Assembly: GCF_963675165.1 (NCBI RefSeq)
Contig: NC_087390.1
Location: 165,001 to 229,000 of the forward strand
Reading direction: 5' to 3'
Length of the DNA stretch: 64,000 nucleotides
DNA from: Halichondria panicea
Lineage: Eukaryota; Porifera; Demospongiae; Suberitida; Halichondriidae
This document shows positions 15,601 to 16,910 of the stretch, piece by piece. Both the position numbers and the translations under genes were made by a program. Numbering within the stretch: position 1 is the stretch's first letter; each line of letters starts with the position of its first letter. The notes beneath the pieces were generated by a model. That model did not search any database. It was given only the letters and a program-made list of their open reading frames with translations, and was not told where the DNA came from.

Positions 15601-16910
15601 GTGTACTTTGTATCCCCTGCTATCCAAGGAAATGCTCTAACCCCCCTAATCCTACCCCCCACAATGCTCTAACCCCCCTAACCCTACCACCCTACATTGT
15701 TCTAAACCCCCTCACCCTACAATGCTCTAACCCCCCTCTCTACCCCCTACATTGCTCTAACCCCCTTAATCCTACCCCCTACAATGCTCTAACCCCCCTC
15801 ATCCTACCCCCCTACAGCTCAGTCTGGGAGAGTGATCAGGAGGCAAGGGCCAAGCATCGGTAAGTGCAGGCAGGCATGCACCTAGTTACAGATTGTACTG
15901 CTTTATAGAATGCCATACAACAGTTCCCACTGGCTTCTATGTAAGTCTAAGCATGTTCAAAACTACCCTCTGTACTATGGTAACGGCCAGGTGTGTGTGA
16001 CTGGAAGCATCCATTGCACACATAAGATGGTAGTCGGTCTCACCATGTGTTACTGTGTGTGTAAGGTGGCCACAATTGATAAGCACTGGAGCAGCCCACA
16101 GCTGATAGGCCTGGGAACGCAGTCAGTTGACACGTTGAGTGGGCGTTCAATTAGTGGCCTCAAGCTATTCACTGTGTGGGCGGGTGGTCTAGTTGAGTGG
16201 GCGGAATCCTTGTACCCTCCGGAATGCAATCATCAGATTATTGAATTGTGTTGTGTTTTGTTTCTGCTCTTTATATTATGTACATAAGCATAGTTTGCGT
16301 TATAGCTGTAGCATGTAGTGTGTTCTTGTTGATCACACACACACACACCCACACACGCCCCCACACACACACACACACAGTTCGACCAGTACCTCGTAAA
16401 GGTAATGAAGTCTCAGCCAGCTCATCCAGAGACGCATTATTAGCCGGAGCAGGAGTGACTGTGATTGGTCAGCGCAGGAAACCACGGCAACTAGACACGT
16501 AAGTACACTCAGCAACCACCAAAAATAGAAAATACATGTTCAGTATAAGTCCTCTAAAAAAACTGCTATCCTTGAAAATAATTATTGTACGCAAAGTTTA
16601 CAAAAATGGCCAATTTGCAAACATTTAGACCCTCAAAAATTACCCACTATACGGGTTGTTGTGTTTATGTAAGAGCTTCTTCCTTGTTGGTTTTGCTGAT
16701 TGTCTAATTTCATCAATTAAGTCCCGTACATGTACATTCCAATTACCCACAAGATTATGTAATTACCAATTTTTGTTTCTCTGCAGAGATTCTGATTCTA
16801 ATATTTCTGACTCGGTCTACACCACGCCCCCGTTGTCAAGTAAGTATGGCTTCCTGGCCCTAGCAACCGTTGGCCTTCTTTGTGTACTCGTGTACGGGAT
16901 AGTTATATAG
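654..16910 (+). CDS. KIF5: kinesin-1 heavy chain (KIF5-type), 21 exons
   Basis: Plus-end microtubule motor. Exons: 654-770, 1040-1139, 1764-1837, 2281-2434, 2491-2546, 2878-2965, 3031-3117, 3422-3564, 3847-4112, 4686-4917, 5147-5422, 10442-10633, 10751-10897, 11083-11231, 11700-11810, 12093-12255, 13521-13688, 15034-15238, 15818-15859, 16381-16498, 16787-16910. Phases agree throughout and give about 1003 residues, normal for KIF5. Seen: P-loop GQTSSGKT (exon 3), switch I SSRSH (exon 7), switch II DLAGSE (exon 8), neck linker KTIKNHV and ELTAEEW (exon 9), then a long coiled-coil stalk matching KIF5 segment by segment (for example DLREIG in exon 12). The tail has a weak IAK-like site ([10 protein letters not shown]). 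The last exon ends in about 21 hydrophobic residues, which is unusual. The start ATG at 654 directly precedes the conserved first strand [10 protein letters not shown]. Confidence 0.93.
1385..1760 (+). repeat. minisatellite of (CA)n-CAGCTACTAGTCTCC units upstream of kinesin exon 3
   Basis: About nine units of a CA run followed by CAG and CTACTAGTCTCC sit just 5' of the exon 3 acceptor (1761-1763). Each unit resembles a 3' splice site (CACACACAG followed by a short pyrimidine stretch). Unit length varies through CA-run length. Confidence 0.85.
2046..2256. repeat. foldback element, type C (kinesin intron 3)
   Basis: The near-palindromic element begins with a GCGGATATATTTCGAGGGTA-like end and finishes with the inverse, TACCCTCGAAATATACCCG. 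The interior carries TTCGCGG and CCGCAAA stretches and GCATGC. Related copies lie at 28285-28486, 35345-35515, 37473-37672 and 52908-53115. Confidence 0.75.
2547..2792 (+). repeat. (GT)n microsatellite, about 245 bp, fused to kinesin exon 5 donor
   Basis: A pure GT run starts immediately at the 5' splice site of exon 5 (CCTATGTGAAG followed by GTGTGT). After the run, the exon-end motif CCCTATGTGAAGGTG recurs at about 2798-2812, so the microsatellite is flanked by two copies of the exon-intron junction. Confidence 0.95.
3195..3365. repeat. short hairpin element, copy 1 (kinesin intron 7)
   Basis: Contains an inverted repeat around TTTAATTTGGCG and CGCCAAATTAAA. A near-identical copy lies at about 51485-51615, in an intron of the ankyrin-pseudokinase gene. 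Confidence 0.6.
4137..4450. repeat. foldback element, type A (kinesin intron 9)
   Basis: A roughly 310-bp imperfect palindrome. It starts with CAGCCATAACTTGAGTACAG and ends with the inverse arm AAGTTATGGCAGCTGAAAG. Both arms carry TCTGAAAGCTTAGAAAA-like and CCTTTCAAATG-like blocks, and a central palindrome CCATGGGCTATAATCCATGG. No coding capacity is seen. It is the same family as clusters at 13.9-14.9 kb, 42.3-42.9 kb, 47.2-48.4 kb and 53.5 kb. Confidence 0.8.
5455..6300. repeat. type B repeats in kinesin intron 11
   Basis: Two related segments (about 5460-5720 and 6050-6290) share blocks such as GATAGAGTACCAGCGCAATT and CCCTTTGTAATGTCTATCTA, and the GAAAGCTTAGAGAGAGGCCTTTCAGAT-type motif also seen near 33.2, 39.5 and 51.0 kb. 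They look like diverged relatives of the type A foldback family. Confidence 0.6.
6643..6840 (+). pseudogene. TRAF-type MATH domain relic, part 1
   Basis: Open frame encoding [20 protein letters not shown], then [11 protein letters not shown] and [13 protein letters not shown]. This is the characteristic centre of TRAF/MATH domains (FYTS.YGYK, LM.GE.D..L.WPF, LLNQ..D..HH). About 15 residues expected between FYTS.YGY and LMKGE are missing. It lies in kinesin intron 11 and runs directly into oppositely oriented TRAF zinc-finger sequence, so it is a rearranged fragment, not part of the kinesin. Confidence 0.7.
6870..7594 (-). pseudogene. TRAF-type RING and zinc-finger relic
   Basis: Two exon-like blocks on the minus strand. 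The 5' block (about 7594 to 7317) encodes a degenerate [23 protein letters not shown], then KCG, and after a one-base frame change [17 protein letters not shown] and [16 protein letters not shown]. An intron (7316 to 7016, GTAAGC...TATAG) contains a 56-bp tandem repeat. The second block (7015 to 6870) encodes [28 protein letters not shown] and CPQCDKGVI, a TRAF zinc-finger segment, ending in TGA. The frame change and the missing second RING cysteine indicate a pseudogene. The MATH part lies nearby in the opposite orientation. Confidence 0.65.
7030..7310 (+). repeat. 56-bp tandem repeat, about five copies
   Basis: Units contain GACATTGAGCTAACCAAGGC and GTTAGCTACACGCATAAGAA, almost identical copy to copy. 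They occupy the intron of the TRAF relic on the minus strand, itself inside kinesin intron 11. Confidence 0.9.
7490..9830. repeat. higher-order tandem array in kinesin intron 11
   Basis: Blocks recur in the same order about three to four times. Examples are GAGGTCTAACCTCACACCCT with CCTTTGCAT; ACTGCCCTAGGAGTGTACT; TTATCTATGGAGCATTTTAA; and GGTGGGTGCCAACCTCGCCA with TCGTTAGATCTGCTATTGTG (near 8050, 8645 and 9360). Periods are roughly 550-700 bp. On the minus strand some units encode short TRAF-like scraps ([13 protein letters not shown]), so the array may derive from the neighbouring TRAF sequence. Confidence 0.7.
9862..10011 (+). pseudogene. TRAF-type MATH domain relic, part 2
   Basis: Open frame encoding [20 protein letters not shown] followed by VLRVKP. 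This matches the last strands of TRAF MATH domains (L.YN...NTQYLKDD.L.FRV). Together with part 1 at 6643-6840 it represents one MATH domain split by about 3 kb of zinc-finger relic and tandem array. Confidence 0.6.
11232..11495 (+). repeat. GT-rich microsatellite at kinesin exon 14 donor
   Basis: The run begins exactly at the exon 14 donor (TTGAGCAG followed by GTGTGTG) and continues about 260 bp with GTGTTGGGGTGTGTGCGT sub-repeats. Translations of this stretch (Cys-Val repeats) are not real proteins. Confidence 0.9.
12297..13295 (+). repeat. about 76-bp minisatellite, about 13 copies (kinesin intron 16)
   Basis: Units contain CCATAGCATGTGTTTGGACC, TGTGTTAGCAGGCCACCCTC, TATAATACAGCCAGGTTAAT and GGGCCTCAAAGTCTCT. 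Copies differ by only a few bases (GGGCTCCAAAG variants; one copy has lost part of TATAATACAG). Confidence 0.95.
13880..14870. repeat. three tandem foldback type A copies (kinesin intron 17)
   Basis: Three head-to-tail copies (about 13880-14180, 14200-14510 and 14545-14860) are joined by a C-rich linker, CACCCCCACCCCCTCCGTTT. Each has the internal palindrome CCATGGATTATAGCCCATGG and arms with TTTCAAATGGTGTCATC and CATTTGAAAGGTAATTTTCT. Confidence 0.85.
15640..15817 (+). repeat. C-rich tandem repeat abutting kinesin exon 19 acceptor
   Basis: About six 30-bp units of the form CCCCCTACAATGCTCTAAC. The real acceptor is the final unit, where CCCCCCTACAG replaces CCCTACAATG. Confidence 0.8.

Follow-up and report, generated by a model that had tools for sequence, protein, structure and literature searches.

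The locus raises the question of where the protein of a kinesin-1 heavy chain gene ends. An earlier note on this DNA had proposed that its last exon runs on, past a splice donor, into a hydrophobic segment that would anchor the motor in a membrane, and that splicing at that donor would instead give a soluble protein. Having analysed the window (the whole stretch of DNA under study, 64,000 nucleotides), we consider it probable that the gene is spliced at 16840 and makes an ordinary soluble kinesin-1. The evidence for the gene, for the hydrophobic end and for the signals around it is given below, and the coordinates are collected in Table 1.

The exon borders were placed by hand from kinesin-1 likeness and the splice consensus, yielding a model of 21 exons (654–16839) in which all borders are GT-AG and the phases are consistent, and whose product has 1000 residues when the frame is read on to 16910. 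Its N-terminus is a kinesin motor domain (PF00225 in Pfam, 371 bits, residues 12–324), which is nearest kinesin-1 (509 bits versus the kinesin heavy chain 2y5w_A, and 262.5 bits versus KIF3B, 3b6u_A). The top PDB match of the whole protein is the kinesin-1 heavy chain 9pmb_A (758 bits), and because this match spans residues 4–946, collinearity with kinesin-1 extends through the stalk and most of the tail. Judged by these alignments, the locus is the organism's kinesin-1 heavy chain gene; the earlier note had named it as such, and motor, stalk and most of the tail do align. As in KIF5A/B/C and Drosophila Khc, the protein has the motor, the neck, the stalk and most of the tail, and a stretch resembling the IAK region can be picked out by eye; unlike in those proteins, IAK here reads IVR, 50 extra residues lie between this IAK-like stretch and the donor, and a hydrophobic C-terminal end is possible. 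The IAK-like stretch lies near the expected position of QIAKPIRPG, a likeness judged by eye, and HMMER alignments place the stretch differently. Among the introns of the gene, intron 5 (2546–2790) consists largely of a long GT repeat, which the open frame translates as Val-Cys, and most of intron 16 is, by eye, taken up by a tandem array (12260–13290) with a unit of ~60 bases (CATAGCATGTGTTTGGACCTGTGTTAGCAGG...). Another repeat, several hundred bases long and also seen by eye, occurs at 13880–14850 as direct copies in intron 17 and at 4140–4445, apparently inverted, in intron 9.

The genome to which the window belongs comprises 131 Mb in 39 contigs, with the window on contig 14. All 12 matches of the kinesin tail (residues 330–1000, E up to 0.001, 32 candidates scored) fall on the gene's own locus, and a second kinesin-1 tail was not found in the 131 Mb genome with this query and threshold. 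This single-locus statement is limited to the kinesin-1 tail, as other kinesin motor exons are plentiful in the genome (128 exon-level matches). When the 40-residue C-terminal end was searched against its own genome at E up to 10, only the self match was returned. In a collection of contigs from other genomes, 18 stretches fit a pattern made from the whole protein, and in viral contigs 6 stretches fit one from the last 171 residues; a single scan of each set confirmed none as a relative.

Beyond the donor at 16840 the frame of exon 21 stays open as far as a TAG stop at 16908–16910. Scored with the values of the Kyte-Doolittle scale, the end of this readthrough has a mean hydropathy of 2.34 when 21 residues are averaged and of 2.68 for the final 19, and the best 19-residue window elsewhere in the kinesin protein (start before residue 940) reaches 1.01. 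The in-frame continuation, the hydrophobic run and the stop are thus as the earlier note had them. The donor GTAAGTAT is also present, but it does not sit exactly before the hydrophobic codons, as had been claimed; it lies inside the Ser codon that precedes K-YGF. The unspliced product has a single hydrophobic segment near its C-terminus and none elsewhere, as a tail-anchored protein does, and the segment is tail-anchor-like in form, with Lys ahead of the run, Tyr near both of its ends and the stop right after it. As a rule, tail anchors that have a very hydrophobic run and no basic residues after it go to ER/secretory membranes rather than to mitochondria. Since the run here is very hydrophobic and no basic residues follow, ER/secretory membranes fit better than mitochondrial ones, and the unspliced C-terminus resembles an ER/secretory tail anchor. 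RNA folding of 16787–16920 is ordinary (z 0.19).

The rarity of such an end was gauged in 264 kb of control DNA (the window plus 20 loci of 10 kb, both strands), in which donor-like sites were read through. The main control took sites with a donor PWM score of at least 6 and 30 open codons upstream, with GT/CA repeats filtered, and gave 1352 site-phases, of which 489 stay open for at least 19 residues. A hydropathy of at least 1.6 is reached by 12/1352 and one of at least 2.0 by 8/1352, counting the kinesin site and with some rows sharing one tail and some being Cys/Val-rich. The kinesin readthrough tops this set, with no other site-phase reaching 2.68, a rank that, like all the rarity figures here, is to be read with the fact that the site was singled out because it was conspicuous. 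At the same two thresholds, GTAAGT sites in all phases gave 4/440 and 2/440 (kinesin site left out), GTRAG sites gave 22/3425 and 14/3425 site-phases, and any-GT sites taken with no repeat filter gave 1688/103097 and 1165/103097, counts that are swollen by GT repeats. Within the kinesin gene, one of the 20 other introns has a hydrophobic start, namely the GT-repeat intron 5, with a Val-Cys run at 3.39. With the gene's introns, stripped of repeats, modelled as a first-order Markov chain, 2.68 was reached in 0.004% (4e-5) and 2.0 in 0.16% of 100,000 draws. The hydrophobic run is rare for a single donor, yet it is expected somewhere among the many introns of a genome.

The 23 codons of the hydrophobic end were also compared with exons and introns in codon choice and composition. 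Their synonymous codon choice is neutral, with a log ratio of −0.5 (45% of 5927 intron windows are as good, and 10% of the kinesin gene's exon windows are as low), or of −1.5 with usage taken from the kinesin gene alone. In whole-codon usage they score −2.0, under every exon window (mean 4.5), where a hydrophobic composition alone lowers the score. GC content falls from 0.48 in the readthrough to 0.30 just past the stop, as at an exon end; equally GC-rich are 18% of 10967 intron windows and the starts of 7/20 other introns of the gene. Codon choice and GC content give no support for coding, and no disproof of it either.

Splice signals were scored with matrices derived from the remaining 20 introns of the kinesin gene, each real donor being scored with itself left out. 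Donors at least as good as 16840 occur outside the model 5 times in 654–16786 and 20 times in the whole window (+ strand). The acceptor at 17734 scores 13.7, and none of the gene's other 20 acceptors exceeds this value; it has no equal outside the model in 654–16786, and the + strand of the window holds 4 acceptors of this strength, 17734 included. Considering this top score in the gene and the few equals in the window, the acceptor is very likely real, and the pair 16840/17734 looks fully usable. Joining 16840 to 17734 gives a soluble end, as had been proposed, with the amendment that the stop arises at the junction itself (...TTPPLSS and stop). Further soluble ends need a direct join of exon 20 to 17734 (LGSMKSLFNKMYKKH and stop) or the acceptor at 17739, which is very weak (−5.9). 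Between the two ends lies the AATAAA at 17512 that the earlier note had pointed to, though it is unremarkable, 0.55 copies being expected in that length of sequence. The ATTAAA at 17778, one of 37 such motifs on the window's + strand, stands 44 bases past the acceptor at 17734, and the G/T tract after it is equalled by 5.2% of background positions. This signal with its G/T-rich tract, as against the ordinary sequence downstream of the AATAAA, speaks for a short final exon at 17734.

Table 1. Coordinates of the kinesin-1 heavy chain gene and of the features around its 3' end, numbered within the window.
Feature	Position	Strand	Evidence and remarks
Kinesin-1 heavy chain gene, 21 exons	654..16839	+	Start codon 654 to donor 16840; exon model, PF00225, 9pmb_A match
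Exon 19	15818..15859	+	Degenerate IAK-like region begins here and continues into exon 20
Exon 20	16381..16498	+	Phase 2 end, donor GTAAGTAC; exon model
Exon 21, 53 bases	16787..16839	+	Asp/Ser-rich tail; exon model
Splice donor GTAAGTAT	16840..16847	+	Score 9.2; 7/20 other donors of the gene higher
Open continuation and stop, candidate tail anchor	16842..16910	+	Present only with intron 21 kept; frame reading, hydropathy
AATAAA in intron 21	17512..17517	+	Downstream G/T unexceptional (equalled by 51% of background positions)
Candidate terminal exon 22	17734..17781	+	Top acceptor; immediate stop after exon 21, LGSMKSLFNKMYKKH and stop after exon 20
ATTAAA, putative poly(A) signal for exon 22	17778..17783	+	GU-rich tract downstream

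How these signals combine was weighed by judgement rather than computed, and what weight the spliced end and the switch described next do not take lies on other arrangements. In the explanation that we favour, exon 21 would be internal, its donor at 16840 joined to the acceptor at 17734; as that join creates a stop codon where the two exons meet, the main product would be soluble kinesin-1. The hydrophobic run would then belong to intron 21, as its opening 68 bases, and owe both its open frame and its hydrophobicity to chance. The analysis shows the gene model, the open frame and the splice signals with their scores; we infer that the 16840–17734 splice is the default and that transcripts left unspliced are scarce or without function. 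This ordinary spliced end is supported by an acceptor that tops those of the gene and a donor of normal strength, by the ATTAAA at 17778 and the G/T tract that follow candidate exon 22, by the lack of coding preference in the 23 codons together with the 7/20 introns that start as GC-rich, and by the occurrence of hydrophobic readthrough ends elsewhere (11 other rows of the 1352 reach 1.6). It is weakened by a run that is the strongest of the repeat-filtered controls and very rare in the Markov model, by its tail-anchor-like form and by the GC drop from 0.48 to 0.30 after the stop. The same layout is, however, what a switch between retention and splicing requires, and we regard such a regulated switch as possible but rather unlikely: splicing at 16840 would yield the soluble protein, and skipping of the donor, with cleavage directed by the AATAAA at 17512 so that exon 21 becomes a composite terminal exon, would yield a tail-anchored one. 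The anchor is predicted to be inserted post-translationally, leaving the motor and stalk cytosolic and the C-terminus in the lumen, and the motor would pull its membrane without light chains or adaptors. A hydropathy of 2.68, the highest of the 1352 repeat-filtered controls, argues for the switch, as do an AATAAA placed between the two ends and the same logic in other genes (PMC5928244; PMC2778554). Against it, 0.55 copies of AATAAA are expected in that length and the sequence downstream is ordinary, the codons and GC content carry no coding signal, and no naturally membrane-anchored kinesin-1 appears in the titles and abstract openings of the literature searched, where subscription journals are mostly absent.

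Two further arrangements would account for part of the signals. Exon 20 might be joined to either of two mutually exclusive last exons, the hydrophobic exon 21, terminal at 17512, or exon 22, with the basic and mildly amphipathic end LGSMKSLFNKMYKKH. Exon 20 (phase 2) is indeed in frame with the very strong acceptor at 17734 and would add 15 residues before a stop, but 15 open codons arise by chance about half the time (estimated by raising 61/64 to the power 15), 10% of the shuffled versions of SMKSLFNKMYKKH match its helical moment, and the good donor at 16840 is left without explanation, so that we consider this arrangement highly improbable. Even less credible is an exon 21 that is always terminal and carries a constitutive tail anchor: the open frame and hydrophobic end agree with it, but the good donor and the top-scoring acceptor must then both be decoys that arose by chance. 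In that case there would be no soluble kinesin-1 found, as the tail query matched its own locus only, and the one kinesin-1 tail found in the genome would be membrane-bound. An ordinary soluble kinesin-1 thus remains our preferred reading, and as it stands the kinesin-1 gene is ordinary, though one of its introns starts in an unusual way.

The tentative alternative, in which one gene might give both a soluble kinesin-1 and, with intron 21 kept, a transmembrane tail-anchored form, so that attachment is set by RNA processing, has counterparts in other genes. A human atlas counts 1648 intronic-polyadenylation events with composite terminal exons (61.6% of those classified), and AAUAAA or AUUAAA is found in 80% of such human events (PMC5928244). 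The isoforms of this kind share with the arrangement suggested here an ignored donor, reading of the intron as far as a poly(A) signal within it, and an altered C-terminus (PMC5928244). In the classic membrane/secreted switch of IgM, the membrane protein is the full-length form and intronic polyadenylation gives the soluble one, whereas here the order would be reversed (PMC5928244). For DMPK, splicing yields tail-anchored and cytosolic proteins (PMC2778554); the likeness is that of one gene with both forms by alternative splicing, here as a possibility, but DMPK is a kinase whose membrane binding has been shown experimentally, and for the kinesin it is a possibility read from sequence. TM is listed among the extra domains of some kinesins in the table and figure keys of a survey of photosynthetic eukaryotes (PMC1434745), and because of this entry a transmembrane segment on a kinesin is as such not unheard of. 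The plant and protist kinesins with a predicted transmembrane domain share this feature with the form discussed here, in a survey limited to photosynthetic eukaryotes (PMC1434745). A soluble/anchored switch of kinesin-1 would, if true, be remarkable. An anchored form, if real, would amount to a motor that is itself part of a membrane, and would offer a direct test of whether kinesin-1 cargo choice needs adaptors.

Elsewhere in the window, inositol polyphosphate kinase exons at 43537–44226 (− strand) and 49400–49909 (+ strand) have a long identical stretch in common, and the pair is perhaps a recent inverted duplication or the result of gene conversion. Two neighbouring stretches on the − strand, 19177–20878 and 23866–26456, hold a PH-domain exon each (20582–20878 and 25971–26456), and both also carry a long Ser-rich open frame with no Pfam match, the two frames being alike by eye. 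By this likeness the PH-domain stretches resemble a diverged tandem gene pair.
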